Shown here piece after piece: positions 360-19,668 of a stretch of 64,000 bases of DNA (position 1 is its first letter; the number at the start of each line of letters is the position of its first letter). A program made the position numbers and the translations under genes. Location of the stretch: the NCBI RefSeq assembly GCF_001887355.1, contig NZ_MPIN01000002.1, forward strand, positions 1,030,510-1,094,509, written 5' to 3'. Source of the stretch: Cystobacter ferrugineus (GTDB lineage Bacteria; Myxococcota; Myxococcia; Myxococcales; Myxococcaceae). Under the pieces are notes generated by a model, which worked only from the letters and a program-made list of their open reading frames with translations, made no database searches and was not told where the DNA came from.

Positions 360-1433
360 ATGCGAGGTGCCTCGATGCAACAACGCACCAGCAAGTCCGC
401 TCCTGGTGTAGCGCTCGTGCAGGAGTCCTGTGTGGAGGGGCCGAGTCTGTCGCTGCTGCGCCTGCCCGCGGCGTTGCCGTGCGAGCCGAGCCTGTACGCG
501 GCGGCGATGGAGCGCGGCACGCGCAGGCGGGTGTTGGCGCTCGAGCTGCTGCGGCACGAGCCGGCGCAGGTGCGGCGCTTCGACGCGAGCCAGTTCGGCC
601 TGCTCACGGCTCATGTCTATCCACGGGGCACCAGGGAGCGGCTGGAGCTGTGCAATGACTGGCACGTGTGGTTGTTCCTCTTCGACGACGAGGTCGACGA
701 GCTGGTGGAGGTGGGCCAGCGGCCGGCGTACCTGAAGGCGTACGTGGACGCGTGCCTCGCGGTGTGGCGCGGCGGCGCGCTGAGGGCCGAGGCCACGCCG
801 CTCGAGCGCTTCACGTGGGATTTGCGCCGGCGCATGGGCCGCCTGGCGAGCGAGCCGTGGATGGAGCGCTTCGTCCACGACGTGGAGGACTACCTCTACC
901 GGGGCACGCTCCTGGCGGCGCGCCACTGGACGGAGGGCACGGTGCCGGACCTCGAGTCCTATATCGAGCAGCGTGCCCTGGACTCGGGGGTGTTCACGGC
1001 GGAGAACCTGGTGGAGTTCGCCGAGCCGGGACAGGAGCTGCCCGAGGAGCTGTTCCGCCTGCCGCTGGTGCAGCGGCTGCGGCTGCTGTGCACCCGGGTG
1101 GTGGCGTTGACCAATGATCTCTTCTCCTTCGAGAAGGAGGTCCTCTGGCACCGCAACCCGAACAACTTCATCCATGTCCTGCGGGTGAACCAGGGGCTGG
1201 GCCTGCGCGAGGCCATCCTCACGGCGATCGACGTCATCAACGCGGACACGGACGCGTTCGTCGCCTGCGAGGAGCTGCTCCATGCGTCCCGGTTGGCGGA
1301 CCCTCGGCTTCTCGGGTACGTGGAGGGCCTGAAGGCGTGGATCTGCGGCAACGTGCACTGGTCGCTGAGGACAGGGCGCTACAGCTCGCCCACCTCGCCG
1401 TTTCCGGAGCTGCGCCGCCAGGCGTCCCCCTGA
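360..1433 (+). CDS. Class I terpene synthase (terpene cyclase)
   Basis: Cytosolic terpene cyclase that would ionise a prenyl diphosphate with Mg2+ and cyclise it; the product cannot be predicted from sequence. Counting from the ATG at 360 (357 aa), the Asp-rich motif is DDEVDE at 109-114, the Mg-binding NSE triad is NDLFSFEKE at 252-260 (N252, S256, E260), the effector-helix Arg lies in YIEQR near 205, and the Arg-Tyr pair occurs near the C-terminus (TGRY). All catalytic signatures of bacterial sesquiterpene/diterpene synthases are therefore present. An in-frame GTG at 348 and an ATG at 375 are alternative starts. No prenyltransferase, P450 or other tailoring gene adjoins it, so it looks like a stand-alone terpene locus. 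Confidence 0.9.
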   Translation: MRGASMQQRTSKSAPGVALVQESCVEGPSLSLLRLPAALPCEPSLYAAAMERGTRRRVLALELLRHEPAQVRRFDASQFGLLTAHVYPRGTRERLELCNDWHVWLFLFDDEVDELVEVGQRPAYLKAYVDACLAVWRGGALRAEATPLERFTWDLRRRMGRLASEPWMERFVHDVEDYLYRGTLLAARHWTEGTVPDLESYIEQRALDSGVFTAENLVEFAEPGQELPEELFRLPLVQRLRLLCTRVVALTNDLFSFEKEVLWHRNPNNFIHVLRVNQGLGLREAILTAIDVINADTDAFVACEELLHASRLADPRLLGYVEGLKAWICGNVHWSLRTGRYSSPTSPFPELRRQASP

Positions 1434-1439
1434 GCCGGG

Positions 1440-1784
1440 TCAGGCCGGGGGCAGGTGATCCCGGATGACACCGAGCCAGTACTCGCGCCCGTAGTACTGG
1501 CTCATCTTCCCGATGCGCTCGCCGTTGCGGAACAGGAGGAAGGTGGGGATGCCGTACAGGCCGAAGCGCCGCGCGAGCTCCTCGTGCTCGTAGGCGTTCA
1601 CCTTGACCACGCGCATGCGCGCGCCCTCCAGCTCGGCCAGGAGCGAGGGTTCGGCGGCGGCGTAGATGTCGCAGTTGGGGCAGCCGGGCCCCCAGAAGTC
1701 CACCACGACCAGCTCGTCCCGGGGCTCCAGCACCAGGGCATCGAAGGTCTGCGGCGTCGCGTCGTAGCTCACGGGATGTGCCAT
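1440..1784 (-). CDS. Thioredoxin-like protein with CPNC active site
   Basis: A 114-residue single-domain thioredoxin fold without a signal peptide, so cytoplasmic. The strand VVVDFWGPG leads into Cys35-Pro-Asn-Cys38, and the cis-proline loop GIPTF (Pro80) is present, so both redox cysteines and the substrate-facing proline are intact. The dipeptide between the cysteines is Pro-Asn rather than the Gly-Pro of classical thioredoxin, which should change redox potential and partner choice. It converges with the terpene synthase gene, whose stop is 6 bp away, and is divergent from the SMI1-like gene. The physiological substrate is unknown. Confidence 0.85.
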   Translation of the reverse strand: MAHPVSYDATPQTFDALVLEPRDELVVVDFWGPGCPNCDIYAAAEPSLLAELEGARMRVVKVNAYEHEELARRFGLYGIPTFLLFRNGERIGKMSQYYGREYWLGVIRDHLPPA

Positions 1785-1964
1785 GCCGGCTCGGTCTAAC
1801 GGCGGCGGGCCGGTGATTCAACCGCGCGCGAGGGGGAGCCAGGGGGGGCCCGCGCGGAAAGGATGTCCGTTGGGAAGCGGGGCCGTGCACAATACGGGGT
1901 GAGGCGTACTGCATTGCGAAGCTGGGCGCCATAAGTTGGGTCCATCGACGTACGTGGAGGGCAC

Positions 1965-3362
1965 ATGCACGAGTGGCTGGAGGGACTTCAGAAGTCGGCG
2001 GTACGGACGTCGGCGGGAGTGGGGCAGGAGGACGTCCAGCGGGCCGAGACCGAGTACGGGGTTCCCTTCCCCGAGGAACTCGCCACGCTGTTCCGCGCGT
2101 TCAACGGAGGGGAGTTCCAAGGGGACGTCACCCTCTTCGCGCTGCACGGCCCCGAGGGTTCTCCGAGCGTGCTGGAGAAGACGCGGCTGATGGTGGAGGG
2201 GCTGCCGGCCGCGGGGCTCTGGCGCATCGGCCTGAAGGGCGCTCACCGGCATCTGTTCACCGCGCGGAAATCGGCGCTGCAGGAGCAGGCCGAGAGCCCC
2301 CTGCCGGGCTGGGTGGAATCGTTGTCGGGAGACGACTGGGTCTATGGCACCTGGGACACCGAGGCGCGAGAGCTGCGGCTGTACCGCTCGCTCCAGTCCA
2401 TGCTCGAGGTGCTCGTTCCTCCCGCGGAGAAGGAGGTGGAGGAGTTCGGAGACCGGACCTATGCCCGTGCCCTCTCCGCGGTGCAGGGCGCCTTGAGTGA
2501 CCTCTCCGTGGAGTACGAGGCGGGCGAGTCGCCCAAGGCCGAGGCCGAGGCCGAGGAGGAAGAGGGCGAAGAGGCTGAGGAGGAAGCCGCGGCCGAAGAG
2601 GAAGAGGGCGAAGAAGAGGCGGCGGAAGAGGCCGGGGGCGAAGAGGAGGCGGCTGAAGAGGAAGAGGCTGAAGAGGCCGAGGGCGAAGAGGAGGCGGCTG
2701 AAGAGGCCGAGGGCGAAGAGGAGGCGGCTGAAGAGGCCGAGGCCGAAGCGACCGAGGAGGAGGGCGCCGAGGAGGAAGCCGAGCCCACCGGCGCGGACGA
2801 GTCCGACGAGGAGTTGCAGCAGCCCGTGGTGGCCGCCGCCAGGCGTCGCATGGGGAAGATCCAGAAGGAGACTGCTCGGGAACGCTCCGCGCCCGTGACG
2901 CCTCTTCGCGAGGTGGAGCCGAAGGCACCGTCCAAGCCGAGCGCCAGGCGCGAAGCGGCGCGTCCCGTGAAGAAAGCCGCTGAGACCAAGGCTCCGGCGA
3001 CCAAGGCTCCGGCGAAGAAGGGGGCCGCCCAGAAGGCCGCCGCGAAGAAGGCCCCGGCGAAGAAGGCCGCCGCGAAGAAGGGGGCCGCCCAGAAGGCCCC
3101 AGCGAAGAAGGCCCCGGCGAAGAAGGCCGCCGCGAAGAAGGCTCCGGCGAGCAAGGCTCCAGCAAAGAAGGCCGCCGTGAAGAAGGGGGCCGCTCAGAAG
3201 GCTCCAGCGAAGAAGGCCGCCGCGAAGAAGGGGGCCGCTCAGAAGGCTCCGGCGAAGAAGGCCGCCGCGAAGAAGGGGGCTGCCCAGAAGTCCGCTGCGA
3301 AGAAGGCCCCGGCGAAGAAGGCCGCCGCGAAGAAGTCCCCGAGTGGGCGTGGCCGGCGCTGA
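1965..3362 (+). CDS. SMI1/KNR4-like domain fused to acidic linker and histone-H1-like Lys/Ala tail
   Basis: 465 residues in three parts. Residues 1-180 resemble an SMI1/KNR4-like (SUKH-type) domain, with a pattern such as [13 protein letters not shown] followed by FRAFNGGEF; the family match is by eye. Residues about 186-280 are almost entirely Glu/Ala/Gly (a polyanionic stretch). Residues about 325-465 are repeats of AKKA, PAKK and GAAQK, a polycationic tail like eukaryotic histone H1 or bacterial AlgP-type proteins. The start ATG follows GTGGAGGGCAC, a good ribosome site. The basic tail suggests nucleic-acid or polyanion binding, possibly masked by the acidic block; this is inference. Length of such repeats usually varies between strains. 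Confidence 0.8.
2518..3345 (+). repeat. Low-complexity coding repeats (acidic block and Lys/Ala block)
   Basis: Two imperfect tandem arrays inside the preceding gene. From about 2518 to 2800, units of GAAGAGGAGGCGGCTGAAGAG type encode Glu/Ala. From about 2965 to 3345, 9- to 12-bp units built on GCGAAGAAGGCC encode AKK(A/G) repeats. Near-identical units such as the one encoding [21 protein letters not shown] recur several times and would allow slippage or recombination. Confidence 0.85.
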
Positions 3363-3378
3363 GCCATCGCCTCGTGCT

Positions 3379-3407
3379 CCGGCTCCCTAGTGGTTCATGG
3401 GAGCCGG
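3379..3407. terminator. Hairpin at convergent gene ends
   Basis: A perfect 9-bp inverted repeat, CCGGCTCCC (3379-3387) and GGGAGCCGG (3399-3407) with an 11-nt loop, lies between the SMI1-like gene and the convergent transporter gene and overlaps the transporter stop codon. There is no T-run on either side, so termination efficiency is uncertain. Confidence 0.45.
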
Positions 3408-4532
3408 CTCTGGACGGAGGTCGTCTTCACGAGGCCCTGGCGGAGAGGAGGGGAGGATGAGGCGGCTCTTGCCATCCTCCTCCCGCTGGTGGCGCCACTG
3501 CTCGTTGAGCCGCGTCAGCCGGTCCTGCAACCACACCTGGATCGCGCCCGCGATGGGCAGACTCAGCAGGGCTCCGATGAGGCCCGCCAGGCCCGTGCCC
3601 ACCAACATCACCAGGGCGATGATGAGGGGGTTCATCTTGAGCGTCCGGCGCTGGACGAGCGGCTGGAGCAGGTTGCCCTCCACCTGCTGGTAGACGAGGA
3701 AGAGGCCCAGGGCGATGAGTCCCTGACGCCCACCCACCGAGGCGGCCGTGGTCCCGGCCACCAGCAGTCCTCCGAGGAAGGAGCCCACGAACGGGACGAG
3801 TCCCAGCACCGCCATGGCCAGGCCCAGGGGCAGGAAGTAGGGCACGCCGAGCAGCAGGGTCATCACCGACGTGAAGATGCCTCCGATGAGGGCCACGAGG
3901 AACGAGCCGGCCACGTAGCCGCCCACCGCCTGGTTCATCCGCCGTCCCAGGCGCCAGTAGTGCTCGCGCCGCGAGGGCTCCACCCATTGGAGCGCGGTGT
4001 TGAACAGGTCGGAGCCGAACAGCAGGAAGAAGATGGTCAGGACGGAGATCGTCACCCCGGCCAGCACGTGGCGCAGCACGTCCGTCACCACGCCGAGCAG
4101 CGGCCCCGGGGCCATGGAGATATGGCCACGAAGCTCCTGGGCCGCCTGGGAGATGAGATCGTAGCGTTCGTCCATCCGCTCGACCCAGGGGTGGTGGCGC
4201 AGCCGGGCGATGAAGTCCGGAGCCGCTTGTGCCAGGCCCCGCCCCTGGTCGATGAGCATGGGCACCAGCGTCATCACCAGCGCCGACAGCAGACCGAGTC
4301 CGAGCAGGCTCACCCCCATCACCGCCAGGCCCCGGCGCATCCCCCTCTTCTCCAGCACGCTCACCAGGGGATTGGCCGCCAGCGCGAGGAAGATCGCCAC
4401 CAGGGCCCAGGACAGCACGGTCCAGCTCATGACCAGCAGCCACAGCACGGCGAGCATCGCCAGGGAGTGCAGGCCCACCGTCCACACCGTGCGAGGCGTC
4501 ACCTGCGAGTGGGAACGGGGGCGCTGGGTCAT
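3387..4532 (-). CDS. AI-2E family transporter (PerM-like membrane protein)
   Basis: 381 residues with about eight hydrophobic segments, arranged as in the AI-2E exporter/PerM family: an N-terminal membrane cluster (SLAMLAVLWLLVMSWTVLSW), a central soluble stretch, then GVPYFLPLGLAMAVLGLVPFVGSFLGG, a Pro/Gly-rich family hallmark, and C-terminal helices. Family members have been linked to autoinducer-2 export or Na+/H+ antiport; the substrate here is unknown. It is 15 bp downstream of a small acidic protein gene on the same strand and is probably co-transcribed with it. The C-terminal 35 residues are a charged cytoplasmic tail. Confidence 0.85.
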   Translation of the reverse strand: MTQRPRSHSQVTPRTVWTVGLHSLAMLAVLWLLVMSWTVLSWALVAIFLALAANPLVSVLEKRGMRRGLAVMGVSLLGLGLLSALVMTLVPMLIDQGRGLAQAAPDFIARLRHHPWVERMDERYDLISQAAQELRGHISMAPGPLLGVVTDVLRHVLAGVTISVLTIFFLLFGSDLFNTALQWVEPSRREHYWRLGRRMNQAVGGYVAGSFLVALIGGIFTSVMTLLLGVPYFLPLGLAMAVLGLVPFVGSFLGGLLVAGTTAASVGGRQGLIALGLFLVYQQVEGNLLQPLVQRRTLKMNPLIIALVMLVGTGLAGLIGALLSLPIAGAIQVWLQDRLTRLNEQWRHQREEDGKSRLILPSSPPGPREDDLRPEPAPMNH

Positions 4533-5769: not shown

Positions 5770-8224
<2,455 letters not shown>

Positions 8225-8267
8225 GCCCTTCCGCCTCTCTTCCGCGTCCGGGTCAGGAGGTGTCCAC

Positions 8268-8813
8268 GTGCTGCGTTCCATCTGCTTGGGAATGGTGTTG
8301 CTGGCACTTCCTGCCCTGGCGGACGAGCGCGCCAGCCGGCCCCGGGTGAGCGCCAACGGAGACTTCTCCGTGCGCATGGTGGAGCGGGGCCCGGGCCAGT
8401 GTTCCCTGGAGGTCTCCCAGGAGAGCGGCCCGGTGTGGACGCTCGAGCAGTGCGTGGGCGGGGTGGACGATCTCTACTTCGTCTCCAATGACGGCGGGCG
8501 GGTCTGGGTGCTGTACCCGCTCGCGCCCAAGGGCAAGAAGAAGCTCGCGGGCAAGAAGTACAAGAAGGTGCCCGCGTGGGCCAACACCCAGGTGGCGGTG
8601 GAGGTGGACCGCAAGGGCACGCGGTTGCAGGAGCGGCGCCTGCTGGAGTTCGTGCCGGCGCGTGCCCTGCCCGAGGTGCGGCAGATGTCACAGCACCTCA
8701 AGTGGTTGGAAGGCATGGTCGGCGTGCCGGGCAAGAGCCCGCGCCTGACGGATGCCGGGAACATCGAGTTCGAGGCGGTGGGCGGCGGCAAGACCCACCG
8801 ACTGACCTTCTGA
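8268..8813 (+). CDS. Secreted hypothetical protein inserted between atpD and atpC
   Basis: 181 residues from a GTG start with a strong AGGAGG ribosome site. An N-terminal signal peptide (MLRSICLGMVLLALPALA) predicts export. The mature part has a strand-rich pattern (FSVRMVERGPGQCSLEVSQ, then WTLEQCVGGVDDLYFVSNDGG) with two cysteines that could form a disulfide, then a lysine cluster (KGKKKLAGKKYKK). No known family is recognised. It is co-directional and closely spaced with atpD (43 bp) and atpC (31 bp), so probably in the same transcript, although an exported protein has no obvious role in ATP synthase. Confidence 0.75.
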   Translation: MLRSICLGMVLLALPALADERASRPRVSANGDFSVRMVERGPGQCSLEVSQESGPVWTLEQCVGGVDDLYFVSNDGGRVWVLYPLAPKGKKKLAGKKYKKVPAWANTQVAVEVDRKGTRLQERRLLEFVPARALPEVRQMSQHLKWLEGMVGVPGKSPRLTDAGNIEFEAVGGGKTHRLTF

Positions 8814-8844
8814 CACAAGCAGTCCCCACGGAGTGGTGAGCCCC

Positions 8845-9249
8845 ATGGCCAAGCTGACGGTCGAGATCGTGACCCCCGAGAAGCGCATCCTGTCGGTGCA
8901 GGCGGACGAGGCGATCGTCCCGGGCGCCAAGGGTCTGTTCGGCGTGAGGCCGGGTCACACCCCCTTCCTGTCCCTGATGGACGCTGGCACGCTCACGCTC
9001 AAGGGCGAGGGCGGCCACACCGACACCTACTTCGTGGCCGGTGGCTTCGTCGAGGTGACCAACGACAAGGTGCTCGTGCTCGCGGACGTGGCCGAGCCCG
9101 TGTCCGGCATCGACGTGGAGGGCGCGCGCCGGCGCCTGGGCGAGTCGATGGATCGCCTGCGGGGCCTGTCCTCGGATGACGCGCGCTTCGCCATCGAGCA
9201 GGCCGCCGTGCGCCGCGAGACGGCTCGCATCGCGGCCTCCGCCCGCTGA
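8845..9249 (+). CDS. atpC: F1Fo ATP synthase epsilon subunit
   Basis: 134 residues from the ATG at 8845 (ribosome site GGAGTGG); a GTG 12 bp earlier is in frame. It starts MAKLTVEIVTPEKRIL and contains the beta-sandwich signature VPGAKGLFGVRPGHTPFL, followed by a C-terminal helical hairpin that can regulate F1. It completes the gamma-beta-epsilon set; delta, alpha and the F0 subunits are not in the window. Confidence 0.95.
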   Translation: MAKLTVEIVTPEKRILSVQADEAIVPGAKGLFGVRPGHTPFLSLMDAGTLTLKGEGGHTDTYFVAGGFVEVTNDKVLVLADVAEPVSGIDVEGARRRLGESMDRLRGLSSDDARFAIEQAAVRRETARIAASAR

Positions 9250-14345: not shown

Positions 14346-15107
14346 ATGCTCATCCCCACGATCTTCCTGCTCGCTTCCGCTCCGGCAGTTACCCCCGCCC
14401 GCAACACGGTGGTTCCAGAGGTGGGTGTCCCCTTCGCTTGTGGTCGCGTGTTCCCGGTGAGCCAGGGGCACGACACGGGGAGCCACCTGCAGAACGACAC
14501 CTACGCCTGGGACTTCCGCATGCCCATCGGCACGCCCATCGTGGCCGCCCAGGATGGCAAGGTGCGCATGGCGCGCGGCGACAGCACCCAGGGCGCGTGT
14601 GATCCCAAGATGGCGTCGTACGCCAACTACGTCGTCATCGATCACTCCGGCGGCCTGGAGACCCAGTACCTGCACTTCAGCGCCGTGGTGGTGAAGCCCG
14701 GCGACACGGTGCGCAAGGGGCAGCTCATCGGCTACTCGGGCAACACCGGCTGGTCCTGCGGCCCCCACCTGCACTTCAAGGTGGCCAACACCATCAGCCC
14801 CGGGTGGAACAACCCCTCCGTGCCCGCGCGCATCGCCGGCTATGGAGATCCGGTGCGCGACACCCTCATCGCCGCTCCCGCGTGTGGCAAGCCGTCGGAT
14901 CTGTCGGTGATGGCCGCCAATGACGCGACGCGCGCCCAGCAGCCGCTGGCGCCCGAGACCCCCGCGCGTGACGGAGAGCAGGCCGCGGGCGGTATCCCCA
15001 CGGGAGCCAAGGCCATCGTGGACCGCGTGTCCAAGTCGGCCTTCGAGTCCTCGCGCCTTCCTTCCCAGGCCCAGGCGTCCGACGACGGCTCGGGCGGCTC
15101 GCGCTAG
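14346..15107 (+). CDS. M23 family metallopeptidase (LytM-like), exported
   Basis: 253 residues with a short signal peptide (MLIPTIFLLASAPAVTPA). The M23 fold is shown by YAWDFRMPIGTPIVAAQDGKV (first zinc Asp in the WDF segment, with SHLQND preceding it), VVIDHSGGLETQYLHFS, the turn GDTVRKGQLIGYSGNTGWS and the HxH zinc/catalytic motif GPHLHF. Such enzymes cut peptidoglycan cross-bridges or secreted peptides in the periplasm or outside. The C-terminal 75 residues are low-complexity and Ala/Ser-rich without a second domain. It converges with the pseudokinase gene, 15 bp apart. Confidence 0.88.
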   Translation: MLIPTIFLLASAPAVTPARNTVVPEVGVPFACGRVFPVSQGHDTGSHLQNDTYAWDFRMPIGTPIVAAQDGKVRMARGDSTQGACDPKMASYANYVVIDHSGGLETQYLHFSAVVVKPGDTVRKGQLIGYSGNTGWSCGPHLHFKVANTISPGWNNPSVPARIAGYGDPVRDTLIAAPACGKPSDLSVMAANDATRAQQPLAPETPARDGEQAAGGIPTGAKAIVDRVSKSAFESSRLPSQAQASDDGSGGSR

Positions 15108-15122: not shown

Positions 15123-17903
15123 TCAGCGTCCCTTCCCCCGTTGCACGAGGGGCGCCGAGCGCGTCTGCTCCCGTTGGAGCAGGGCATCGAGCTTCCTCCC
15201 CGCGCGGATGGCCTCCCTGCGTGCCTCGCGCACCCGCGCCGAGCCGCGGGAACCCCGCAGCCGCTCGATGGTCGTGAGTGCCGCCCGCTCGCGCCGCACC
15301 GCGGCCACCCACTCCTCATGCGTGAGGCGCAGCGCCTCGTGGGCGAGCGCCAGCCTCCGGTGGGCTTCCTCCTGGGCCACCTGCTCCTTGCTCCGCTTCA
15401 GCTCCCGGGCCTGGAGCTCGGCGAGATCGCGCAGCGCTCGCTTCTCCGCCGCGTGGGCCTGGGCTTGCGCGTCCCGCGCCAGCGTCTCCGCGCCTTGTGC
15501 CATCTCCTCGGCCGCACGTGCCGCCGCGGCCTGGTACTCGGCCTCCGTCCTCGCCTCGCGCAGCAGCACCAGCGCCAGCGCCAGGAGCACCAGCCCCAGC
15601 AACGTCATGCCCCCCACGAGGAGCGCTCGCGCGCGGCGCAGGCGGCGCTGCTCGTGGGTGAAGACGGCCTCCAGGAAGTCGCGCTGGAGCGCCGACATCG
15701 CCCCGTGCGCGCGCCGTTGGAAGCGCCGGGCCTCCTCCACCCACTCGCCGCGCCACAACAGGCGCCGGGCACGGCCGCTCTCCTGCCACTGCCGGGCCGC
15801 CTGGCTCAGGTGCTTCAGGAACGTCGTGTCCTCCAGTCCCTCGTCCAGCCAATGCCGGAGCGTGGGCCAGTCATGGATGAGCGACTCGTGCACCAGCTCC
15901 ACCGCCGTGTCCGACTCGTCTCCTCCGCTGTGCAGCACGAGCAGCCGCGCGCGCACCAGGTGCTCGATGAGCCGCCGCGGCTCCGCCGGGTCGTCCGTCA
16001 GTTCGCACAGCTCCTGCATCATCACGAGCGCCCGGGTGCGCTCGGGCGTCACCAGGCGCATGCTCAGGGTCCGCGTCAGCGCCCGCTCCCGGGCGGACAG
16101 GCCCGCGAGTACCCGGTCCGCATGGCTCGCGAGCGCGTGGGTGATGCCGCCCATCGCCTCGAGCGCATCCCGTGTCAGCAGCTTGTCGCGCGTGTCCCGG
16201 GACTCCCACAGCCAGGTGGCGGCGAACTGCATCAGCGGGAGCGCGCCCTGGGTGGTCTCCAGGTGCGCCAGCATGTCGTCCACCAGCGAGGGCGTCTCGA
16301 ACCGGTAGCCCGCCAGCTCCGCCGGCCGCACCAGCGCGTCATGCAGGCCGTCCCGCGTCGGCGCGCCGAGGAAGAAGATGCCCTGGGCGAGCTCCGCCAT
16401 GAAGCGCTCGTCCTCGGGCACCCGGTCCAGGAAGTTCGAGCGCACGCAGAGCACCACGCGGATGGGCGAGGTGGCATCGTCCGCGAGGCCCGCCAGGCAC
16501 GCGGTGAAGGCCGCGCGCTCGCGTGCATCGGGCACCCGCGTGTACAGCTCCTCGAGCTGATCGACGACGAGCAGGATCTTCCGGGGCTGGCGCCGGGCGC
16601 TGTCGCGCAGCACCCTGCCCACGTAGCCGGGCTCGAGGCGCAGGCGCTCCACGCGCTGGAACTGCTCCTGGAGGTCCTGCTCGATGGACTGGGACGAGCC
16701 CACCAGGGGCTCCACCACCTGGGCCAGGGCGGCGAGGGGATCCGCGCCCGGGCGGAGGACGAACGTCTCCCACGGGGTGCCCGAGCGCTTGAGGGTGGGG
16801 AGGAGACCCGCGAGCACCAGGGAGGTCTTCCCCGAGCTGGCGGGGCCCGCCACGGTCACCATCGGCTGGTAGTGGAGCCGGTGGACGAGCGTGGCGATCT
16901 CCCGCGTGCGGCCGAAGAACCGGTCCGCGTCGGCCTCCTGGAAGGGCGCGAGGCCCACGTAGGGTGTCGTGTCCAGACGCGGCTCGGGGTTGAAGCGCTT
17001 GGGGAGGAAGGGCTCCAGGGCGCGCAGCAGCGTCGGCGCGTCGGGGCAGCGCTGATCCCTGGACTTGAGCAGGCAGCGATCGACGGCGGCGGCCAGCTCG
17101 CGTGGCAGACCCGGGGCGAGCGTGCGCAACGGCGGCAGGCGGAGGTCGAGCCGGGCCGTCACCGCCAGCTCCGGACCCCGGAGCGGGCCCAGGGGGTGCT
17201 GGCCGGCGAGCAGCTCGAAGAGGATGATGCCCACCGCCCAGATGTCCGTGAGGTGATCCACCGGGCCGTCCTGGCCCCACTGCTCCGGGGACAGGTACTC
17301 CAGGGTGGAGGGCAGCGTGCCGCGGCACGTGAGATCCTTCCCATCGTCATCGAGCAGCCCTCCGGCGAGCGCCTCCCCGGAGGCGCCCTCCCAGGGCTCT
17401 CCCGCCTGGAACATCCGGGTCATGCCGAAGTCGAGCACCTTGATGGTGCCCGAGTCCGTGACGACGATGTTCTCCGGCGTGAGCGCGTGGTGGACGAGGC
17501 CCTGCGCATGCGCACACGCCAGGGCCCTGATCACCGGCACCATCAACTCGACGGCGCGTACCGAGGACAGCCGCTGCTCATGGGTGTGCTCCCGCAGGGA
17601 CTGGCCCTGGAGGTGCTCCAGCACCAGGAAGGGGCCGTCCTCGTACTGGCCGACGTCGTGGACGGTGGCGATGTTCTCGTGGGCGCAGCGCGCGATGGCA
17701 CGGGCCTCGGCGAGGACGTGTTGGGTGAGGCCATCGTCCCGGGTGGGCAGCAGCTTGAGGGTCACACGGCGCCCCAGCCGGGTGTCCCGTGCGAGGTAGC
17801 TCTGGCCCATGCCGCGGCCGCTCAGCTCGCGGATGAGTTCGTAGTGCTGGAGGCGCAGCCCGGGTTGGATGGACGAGGGGTTCCTCGAGGGGGCCGGTGT
17901 CAT
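15123..17903 (-). CDS. Pseudokinase-STAND ATPase fusion, membrane-anchored
   Basis: 926 residues. Residues 20-300 form a Hanks-type kinase domain, but the catalytic HRD is H138-H139-A140 (LVHHALTPEN), so the catalytic Asp is absent, and the Gly-rich loop is degenerate (LSGRGMGQSY). Lys50 (VTLK) and DFG (158-160) remain. Residues 315-700 are a novel-STAND NTPase: FFGRTREIA entry motif, Walker A GPASSGKTS (353-361), Walker B KILLVVDQLEEL (442-453). A single membrane helix (about 757-780) leads to a long Ala/Glu/Arg coiled coil (785-925); the WD40 or TPR repeats common in this family are missing. Expected role: ligand-controlled signalling scaffold at the membrane. It lies 70 bp downstream of a GTPase gene on the same strand. 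Confidence 0.85.
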   Translation of the reverse strand: MTPAPSRNPSSIQPGLRLQHYELIRELSGRGMGQSYLARDTRLGRRVTLKLLPTRDDGLTQHVLAEARAIARCAHENIATVHDVGQYEDGPFLVLEHLQGQSLREHTHEQRLSSVRAVELMVPVIRALACAHAQGLVHHALTPENIVVTDSGTIKVLDFGMTRMFQAGEPWEGASGEALAGGLLDDDGKDLTCRGTLPSTLEYLSPEQWGQDGPVDHLTDIWAVGIILFELLAGQHPLGPLRGPELAVTARLDLRLPPLRTLAPGLPRELAAAVDRCLLKSRDQRCPDAPTLLRALEPFLPKRFNPEPRLDTTPYVGLAPFQEADADRFFGRTREIATLVHRLHYQPMVTVAGPASSGKTSLVLAGLLPTLKRSGTPWETFVLRPGADPLAALAQVVEPLVGSSQSIEQDLQEQFQRVERLRLEPGYVGRVLRDSARRQPRKILLVVDQLEELYTRVPDARERAAFTACLAGLADDATSPIRVVLCVRSNFLDRVPEDERFMAELAQGIFFLGAPTRDGLHDALVRPAELAGYRFETPSLVDDMLAHLETTQGALPLMQFAATWLWESRDTRDKLLTRDALEAMGGITHALASHADRVLAGLSARERALTRTLSMRLVTPERTRALVMMQELCELTDDPAEPRRLIEHLVRARLLVLHSGGDESDTAVELVHESLIHDWPTLRHWLDEGLEDTTFLKHLSQAARQWQESGRARRLLWRGEWVEEARRFQRRAHGAMSALQRDFLEAVFTHEQRRLRRARALLVGGMTLLGLVLLALALVLLREARTEAEYQAAAARAAEEMAQGAETLARDAQAQAHAAEKRALRDLAELQARELKRSKEQVAQEEAHRRLALAHEALRLTHEEWVAAVRRERAALTTIERLRGSRGSARVREARREAIRAGRKLDALLQREQTRSAPLVQRGKGR

Positions 17904-17973: not shown

Positions 17974-19668
17974 TCAGCGTCGCTGGAGCAGGGCCCGAGC
18001 GGCCTCGCGTCCGGGGCGCAGGCTGTCCTGGACGGCCTCTCCGAGCCGGACGCCCAGCGCCTCGAGCAGCGTGGTGAACCGCTCCAGACCCGCGCGGCGC
18101 ACGGCGCGGGTGGTGCCCGCCAGGCTCGCCGAGGACAGCAGAGCACCGGCTCCCGCCAGCAGCGCGAGCAGGGCCCCCGCGTTGAGGAAGTAGTCCACGC
18201 CCAGCAGGGGGCCCTCGATATAGGCGCGCACCACGCGGTAGCCCACGTGGGCCAGGAGCGCGAGCAGGGGCAGGTTGATGAGCGGCAACACCAACCAGCG
18301 CGCGGTGCGCCACCAGCCGGCCACCGCCTCGGCCACCGCGGTGGTGACGGTGTAGCGCCAGGCGCTCGCGCGCGCGGACTTCAACTCCGCGAGCAGCGTC
18401 TCCACATCGGGCAGGCCCAGTGTCTCCGGGGGCAGTCCGCCCGCGTGCGCGAGGGCACGGGCCTGCGTCAGCGCGGCGCGGGCGGCGGCCTCCACGGCGA
18501 AGTCATCCTCGAAGGGCTCCACCACCGCCGTCTCCGCCGCGCGCGCGCGCGTGCGCTCCCGGACCGCGTCCAGCACGGTGGAGGTGGCCGCCACCGCCAG
18601 GCCCACGGGCAGATTGCGCCTTGCCACCAGCGTCGCCGCGCCCAGCCCTCCCACGCCCACGGACGACAGCCGCATGCCCCAGGCCGCCGGGCCCCAGAAG
18701 CGTCCCGCCGCCTGTCCACGCACCTCCGTGGCGAGGTGCCCCTGGGCGAGCAGCAGCCGCGCGCCGAAGTCCTCCTTCAACCCCGTGGCGGTCCGGCCGA
18801 GCCCCTCCCGCAGCGCCGCGCTTGCCTTCGCGAGCGTGTCCTCCGTCTCCTTCAGCGCGCCCTCCACCCGCGCGGTGAGCTCCGCCAGGGCGCCCTCGGC
18901 GTTGGTGCGCCGCACCCGCTCGGCCACCGCCCGCGTGGCGAGCGACTGGAGATGGAAGAGCAGGGCGCCGAACTCGCCGGATGGGTCCTCCCCCCGCTGC
19001 GCGGCGCGGCCGCTGATGGCGAAGACGGGCACGGACTCCGCCTCCATGCCGTAGCGCTCCACGGCGAGCCGGCGTGCCTGGGACTTGAGGGCCTCGCGCG
19101 ACTCGGCCGACAGCTCATCCGCGAAGTTGACGAGGAACACGAGCGCACGGCGCCGGGCGAACTCCGCGAGGAACTCGGCCTGGGTGGCCTCGGCCACGCT
19201 GCCCCGGTGCATCACCACCAGCGCCACGTCCGCGCGCTCCAGGGCGGCGCGCGCCACCTCGCGGTGCACGGTGGCCACGCTGTTGAGGTCCGGTGTGTCG
19301 ATGAACACCTGGCCGCTCCACAACCCGCGCGGGCCCGGGGTGTAGCGCACCACCCGCGCGCCCACCCCGGCGAGATCCTCCAGGGCGAGTGACTCGGGGG
19401 CGAACACGGTGGCGGCGGTGCTCGTGGGCCGATCCTCCCCCTCGCGGGCGAGGGCCTGTCCGGCCAGGGCATTGAGCAGGGTGGACTTGCCCGCGCCGGT
19501 GGCACCCACCAGGGCCACGGTGAGGGGGGCGTCACGCCGCTCGAGGCCGCGCGCGTAGTCCTGGCGCAGCCGCTCCAGTCGGGCGGCATGGGGGGCGAGG
19601 GCGGGCAGGGTGCTCGCGGCGGAGAGCAGACGCTCGAGGTGCTCGGGGTCGGGCAGAGAGGTGTCCAC
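17974..19668 (-). CDS. Dynamin/Era-like membrane GTPase
   Basis: 564 residues. G1 is GATGAGKST (near residue 54), G2 is the Thr-rich RPTSTAAT, G3 is DTPDLNS, and the G4 position reads LVNFADEL in place of NKxD. After the GTPase domain there are long helices, a hydrophobic pair (LVLPLINLPLLALLAHVGYRVV and YFLNAGALLALLAGAGALL) and a final helix, a plan like dynamin-like or YjfP/YeeP-type membrane GTPases. Expected location is the inner membrane. It is the first gene of a likely two-gene unit with the pseudokinase-STAND gene 70 bp downstream. A related GTPase lies 15 kb away (34974-36716). Confidence 0.8.
   Translation of the reverse strand: MDTSLPDPEHLERLLSAASTLPALAPHAARLERLRQDYARGLERRDAPLTVALVGATGAGKSTLLNALAGQALAREGEDRPTSTAATVFAPESLALEDLAGVGARVVRYTPGPRGLWSGQVFIDTPDLNSVATVHREVARAALERADVALVVMHRGSVAEATQAEFLAEFARRRALVFLVNFADELSAESREALKSQARRLAVERYGMEAESVPVFAISGRAAQRGEDPSGEFGALLFHLQSLATRAVAERVRRTNAEGALAELTARVEGALKETEDTLAKASAALREGLGRTATGLKEDFGARLLLAQGHLATEVRGQAAGRFWGPAAWGMRLSSVGVGGLGAATLVARRNLPVGLAVAATSTVLDAVRERTRARAAETAVVEPFEDDFAVEAAARAALTQARALAHAGGLPPETLGLPDVETLLAELKSARASAWRYTVTTAVAEAVAGWWRTARWLVLPLINLPLLALLAHVGYRVVRAYIEGPLLGVDYFLNAGALLALLAGAGALLSSASLAGTTRAVRRAGLERFTTLLEALGVRLGEAVQDSLRPGREAARALLQRR

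Follow-up and report, generated by a model that had tools for sequence, protein, structure and literature searches.

Does the output of a STAND ATPase fused to a kinase need phosphorylation? Kinase-STAND fusions occur in multicellular bacteria, and one locus of Cystobacter ferrugineus, whose genome is assembled as 12.05 Mb in 42 contigs, puts the question in a concrete form. Within the window (the whole 64-kb stretch of DNA analyzed here), an open reading frame at positions 15123 to 17903 on the minus strand, with an ATG start codon, encodes a 926-amino-acid (aa) protein with a kinase half, an nSTAND1 ATPase, a membrane helix, and a helical tail in that order. Its sequence supports reading it as a pseudokinase joined to a STAND ATPase that looks competent.

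Architecture and motifs of the 926-aa protein

The degenerate kinase-fold domain (residues 17 to 302; 16998 to 17855, minus strand like every other element of the protein) matches PF00069 over residues 31 to 239 (E 1.2e-28). Modeled alone by AF2, the kinase half had a mean pLDDT of 75.7, with values below 50 in the activation loop (residues 162 to 195), and its best PDB chain was 4ow8, PknA (Z 29.2, rmsd 2.4 over 262 residues). By Pfam and in the model, a Hanks-type kinase fold is retained. The models are of single chains; the full-length one was poor (mean pLDDT 62) and was used for its helices alone, and all 50 Foldseek matches listed for it were kinases.

Read back from the DNA, the catalytic loop LVHHALTPENI (residues 136 to 146; 17466 to 17498) has H138-H139-A140 in place of HRD, with Ala at the position of the catalytic Asp and with N145 kept. 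The Gly-rich loop (residues 28 to 35; 17799 to 17822) is SGRGMGQS, in which SGRGMG departs from the GxGxxG of active Hanks-type Ser/Thr kinases. Strand beta3, VTLKL (17751 to 17765), keeps K50 and has Thr for the spine Ala; E66 and the DFG motif (residues 158 to 160; 17424 to 17432) are also still there. An earlier note on this DNA had reported HHA, a degenerate Gly-rich loop, and the survival of Lys50 and DFG, and in this it was right; to its list the family alignment adds G28S, G30R, and V35S in the Gly-rich loop and A48T, R139H, and K142T beyond it. Kinases of Myxococcus xanthus have been classed as pseudokinases by three residues. Applied to the 926-aa protein, that definition, as given in the accessible text of PMC6791715, makes it a pseudokinase through D140A.

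The nSTAND1 module (residues 314 to 713; 15765 to 16964) matches PF20703 in full length, over profile positions 1 to 378 of 379 (E 6e-104). With the STAND patterns GxxxxGK[ST] for Walker A and hhhhDxxEE for Walker B, both motifs are intact, as had been claimed: GPASSGKT (residues 353 to 360; 16824 to 16847) and KILLVVDQLEE (residues 442 to 452; 16548 to 16580) were read back from the DNA, and the motifs are kept in all four pseudokinase copies described below. A membrane helix (residues 763 to 781; 15561 to 15617; hydropathy 2.65) leads into a charged helical tail of 145 aa (15126 to 15560), with AF2 helices at residues 784 to 884 and 889 to 923. The earlier note had taken membrane helix and coiled coil to replace the WD40/TPR sensor usual for such proteins. 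The helix stands, but a simple heptad contrast for a coiled coil in the tail did not rise above shuffles (331 of 2,000 reached its value), and the idea of a swapped sensor was rejected as worded: every complete row of the family has its membrane helix and long tail, so nothing has been replaced.

That family is the canonical Myxococcaceae kinase-nSTAND1-TM-tail group, which includes L002 and L053 of the same genome as well as L012 and L042. The 926-aa protein belongs to it by domain order, by the TM helix, and by a tail within the range of 132 to 157 aa, and members outside the pseudokinase clade are 49 to 60% identical to it over nearly the full length. They keep GxGxxG, VAIK, HRDLKP, DFG, and, where testable, a TPR/PEGA-like gene, whereas the 926-aa protein has lost GxGxxG, the Ala of AxK, HRD, and the TPR/PEGA-like gene. 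Two further proteins of the same genome, L003 and L004, likewise join a kinase to nSTAND1 and have a hydrophobic segment in the corresponding position, but they differ in their intact active-site motifs and a C-terminal FGE-sulfatase domain, at 36% identity; no WD40 was found when these two were scanned.

Rarity and history of the loss

HRD is seldom lost in this family. An alignment of 85 distinct kinase-nSTAND1 rows (83 from the family and two outgroup paralogues, with identical sequences removed and near-identical ones retained) has HRD in 81 and the catalytic Asp in 82. The four exceptions are the 926-aa protein and two congeneric copies at 88 to 89% identity, all three with HHA, plus one copy with HHD that is syntenic and comes from a fourth genome, G034. 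The HRD Asp is kept in all 20 of the more distant alignment matches examined, of which 18 belong to other families of the phylum and two to the same family. Within the C. ferrugineus genome, 86 kinase domains were read, drawn mostly from the upper part of a list of 150 scored kinase-like hits and biased to the more similar ones; 85 keep the HRD Asp, the 926-aa protein being the sole exception, and all 86 have K50 and the DFG Asp. Neither V35S nor A48T has another case among them. K142T is a weak sign, with Thr or Ser at that position in 21 of the 86, and at the position of the first loop Gly 25 domains have a different residue and one has a gap (the 926-aa protein is included in the 21 and in the 25). 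Some of the hits are fragments of a single gene, and hits starting near query residue 76 to 90 were left out of the 86; given this selective sampling, divergent pseudokinases may be among the hits not read. One group of the 150 hits, matching from query residue 76 to 90, lies in frames of about 1,700 to 1,950 aa. Pseudokinases as such are ordinary in M. xanthus, since 11 of its 99 kinases are reported to be pseudokinases in the accessible text of PMC6791715.

The earlier note had suggested aligning the catalytic loop with orthologues and had allowed that an intact HRD there could mean a sequence error. The outcome is mixed: same-locus copies in the nearest genus do have HRDLKP, as does the paralogue within the genus itself, but HHA recurs in two congeneric genomes. 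The loss is thus real, and a sequencing error was rejected.

All four pseudokinase copies lack the HRD Arg (R139) and the loop glycines G28 and G30, and in all four the N-lobe spine residues are changed, V35 to Ser or Ala and A48 to Thr or Leu. By the loop and AxK motifs, these two positions were equated with V57 and A70 of PKA, whose role in the spine is described in the accessible text of PMC12721161. Beyond this common base the copies differ. The HRD Asp is gone in three (D140A), and in the fourth it is the beta3 Lys that is gone: G034 has K50 to Leu together with a 7-residue deletion in alphaC that removes the alphaC Glu. In G033, Glu66 has become Gln, and in G032, DFG has become DLG. We infer that the shared losses came first and the copy-specific ones afterward, and it is plausible, from these residues, that the pseudokinase copies have lost ATP binding. 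The G034 copy (L102, 3959 to 7072), which lacks the beta3 Lys and seven alphaC residues, keeps HHDLKPEN.

The same four copies stand apart in their surroundings. A TPR/PEGA-like gene, a label that goes back to weak Pfam matches below the curated cutoffs, lies downstream in 74 of 78 testable rows, many of them close relatives; it is missing from four, and these are the pseudokinase copies. The 926-aa protein thus lacks the gene that directly follows in all 74 of the other testable rows. A row counted as testable when 700 bases or more were available downstream of it; 7 of the 85 rows had less. The pseudokinase side probably represents one evolutionary event rather than four. Elsewhere in the C. 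ferrugineus genome, on L053, the active kinase-STAND gene has downstream of it (406 to 3930, minus strand) a TPR/PEGA-like gene and then a gene for a protein with six DUF4215 stretches; the three could form a module.

Synteny allows the locus itself to be followed. It is marked by a convergent M23 peptidase gene on the plus strand (14346 to 15107; PF01551, E 6.7e-26) and, upstream of the 926-aa frame and on its strand, by a gene for a GTPase (17974 to 19668, minus strand) with Dynamin_N and MMR_HSR1 matches. At the thresholds used, the peptidase was found in 70 and the GTPase in 69 of the 96 genomes of the family; by a hand count, the two overlap or lie at most 100 bases apart on one contig in 56 of the 68 genomes with both, so that in those 56 no STAND gene stands between them. 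In all four genomes examined of the genus, the pseudokinase copy sits between peptidase and GTPase, and an intact paralogue with all motifs (HRDLKP) is present in the same four. The nearest genus, termed g3, whose GTPase is the most similar one (83 to 85%), has one or two intact same-locus copies in three of its six genomes (G004, G005, and G007; copies L016, L019, L011, and L054), and tblastn found no copy in the peptidase-GTPase interval of the other three. In G007, one such interval (L113, C1:1116500-1136000) holds two intact kinase-STAND copies and also a kinase-like match at 8134 to 8925; the interval is perhaps a local hot spot for kinase-STAND genes.

An element of the activation loop, GGLLDDDGKDLT (17328 to 17363), is common to the four pseudokinase copies, with two substitutions in G034. 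It resembles LLDGEAGDLT or LLEDDGEELT of three of the four g3 same-locus copies and is unlike the other-locus copies displayed. Together with synteny, this element suggests a single ancestral copy at the locus, which remained active in g3 but became catalytically dead in the genus of C. ferrugineus. In AU tests on the STAND tree, joining the pseudokinase clade with the g3 same-locus copies gave a p of 0.277 and joining it with the genus's own active copies a p of 0.15. Neither union is rejected, and orthology with the g3 copies therefore rests on synteny and the activation-loop element.

Selection and competing explanations

We lean, with somewhat more confidence than doubt, toward a genus-specific duplicate that has lost phosphotransfer and kept its STAND switch, the dead kinase serving as a scaffold or regulator. 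Its most serious competitor is decay, in which the duplicate, made redundant by the active copy, would be losing first its kinase and later its STAND module; we consider this unlikely, though it has real observations behind it. HHA and the missing partner gene would both be expected, as would the absence of a copy from the interval in three of six genomes of the nearest genus. So would the long branches of the STAND tree, which measure 0.34 to the four copies, 0.59 to three of them, and 2.05 to G034, against a median tip of 0.094. The G034 copy has been damaged further, through the loss of K50 and of part of alphaC and in a C-terminal part that is just 40 to 43% identical to the other three. 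Yet the reading frame is open in all four genomes, the Walker motifs are retained throughout, and the codon model finds constraint. For the kinase half of the pseudokinase copy, omega was 0.133 among the three near species and 0.116 with all four, and omega of 1 was rejected (2dlnL of 74 and 170, respectively); the active copy gave 0.109 (three species; 2dlnL of 66, neutrality again rejected) and 0.094 (four). By this model, constraint on the kinase half is nearly as strong as it is in the active copy, and such purifying selection argues that it is not simply decaying. For the STAND module, omega was 0.139 in the pseudokinase copy, with neutrality rejected, and about 0.11 in the active copy, the latter from a coarse grid. 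Maximum-likelihood omega had stuck at its start values in four runs (active-copy STAND and C-terminal part); those values were dropped, and three of the four runs were replaced by a coarse grid, giving 0.11, 0.15, and 0.08. NG86 estimates of dN/dS were higher than those of the codon model, at 0.29 to 0.59 when the pseudokinase copies of the three near species were compared with one another; in comparisons with G034 they were 0.52 to 0.60 (kinase), 0.77 to 0.80 (STAND), and 0.98 to 1.05 (C-terminal part). The fast evolution of the STAND module and the drift of all three parts in G034 count against the scaffold or regulator reading; the drift also fits a slow loss of function, and the G034 copy may be on that path.

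Conservation of the kinase half (omega 0.133, 2dlnL 74), together with its degenerate motifs, supports what the earlier note had proposed, a pseudokinase in noncatalytic use. That note's idea of an ATP sensor has fared less well. We consider it rather improbable that the pseudokinase still binds ATP and acts as an ATP sensor for the STAND module. In favor of this, the 926-aa protein retains K50, E66, N145, and DFG, and A48T need not block ATP, since substitution of the spine Ala by Phe, but not by Val, effectively does so (accessible text of PMC12721161). However, the ATP-site residues are not conserved across the four copies: one has lost K50, two have lost the alphaC Glu (Gln in G033, deleted in G034), and one has lost the Phe of DFG. 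Two loop glycines and V35/A48 are altered in all four, with V35S and A48T unique among the 86 kinases read from the genome. The same disagreement among leftover active-site residues makes it extremely unlikely that the protein is still an enzyme, with another catalytic base or through AMPylation or glutamylation as in SelO and SidJ; K50 and DFG do remain, and some pseudokinases have new activities, according to the accessible text of PMC12599244, but no new acidic residue appears in LVHHALTPENI before the usual E144 position. Very unlikely, too, is an integrated decoy in which the dead kinase poses as a cellular kinase target, and the binding of a phage or competitor factor to it sets off the STAND module. 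A dead kinase on a STAND ATPase, evolving fast, seen in one genus only, and with an active paralogue present, has the look of such a device, and plant ZED1/ZAR1 offers a precedent (accessible text of PMC6634424). Of six proteins of the window scanned with PADLOC, two had matches: the kinase half matched kinase models, PD-T4-6 best of all (E 7e-57), and the GTPase matched LeoBC (E 1.1e-13, residues 35 to 226) and LeoA (E 4e-11) over its GTPase part. The other four, all neighbors, had none. Both sets of matches look like generic hits to a kinase and a GTPase domain, and the Leo matches probably reflect a shared domain rather than a defense system. Moreover, no attacker is known, and omega at the domain level indicates constraint, not diversifying selection.

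A dead kinase beside an active sister

How might the preferred arrangement, a duplicate with a dead kinase and a working STAND switch, act? We imagine that in the active copies an ATP-driven STAND assembly brings kinase domains together, which would then phosphorylate each other or the TPR/PEGA-like partner. The 926-aa protein would form the same membrane-anchored assembly but present a dead kinase fold, acting by binding; most likely it would tune the active sister of shared architecture that accompanies it in all four genomes of the genus. That it does so through mixed oligomers is a tentative and somewhat doubtful proposal. Alternatively, still within the scaffold or regulator explanation, it could hold some other partner, the TPR/PEGA-like gene being gone.

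Bacterial precedents exist in part. EssB/YukC is a pseudokinase with a scaffold role (accessible text of PMC12599244), and EcpK is a tyrosine pseudokinase proposed as a scaffold in M. xanthus (accessible text of PMC12004946); in these, a dead kinase-like domain has a binding role, shown or proposed. However, neither has a STAND ATPase (STAND and NTPase are absent as terms from the accessible text of PMC12599244), and EcpK resembles bacterial tyrosine kinases, another fold than that of the 926-aa protein. In plant ZED1/ZAR1, a pseudokinase is coupled to a STAND ATPase, NLRs being STAND ATPases (accessible texts of PMC6634424 and PMC7583971), but these are separate proteins with an immune role. 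Pseudokinases, kinase-nSTAND1 proteins, and plant pseudokinase-NLR pairs are already known. A search of the open-licence literature on pseudokinases with STAND and on kinases with nSTAND1 found no description of the combination seen here, in which a bacterial kinase-STAND receptor has a copy with a dead kinase beside its active sister.

A more far-reaching interpretation, which we consider distinctly unlikely, is that receptor output has been freed from phosphorylation altogether, the kinase fold having become a built-in bait and the STAND module firing when a cellular or foreign partner binds; catalysis, partner gene, and pocket residues would then have been shed at one locus in one genus. 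In the scaffold or regulator reading, which we prefer, the dead but conserved kinase half probably serves in binding or regulation and not as an enzyme. Either way, the genus offers a natural experiment on whether STAND output depends on phosphorylation: one cell has both a motif-complete copy with its partner gene and a dead copy without one, and the intact form of the dead-copy locus is still present in the nearest genus.
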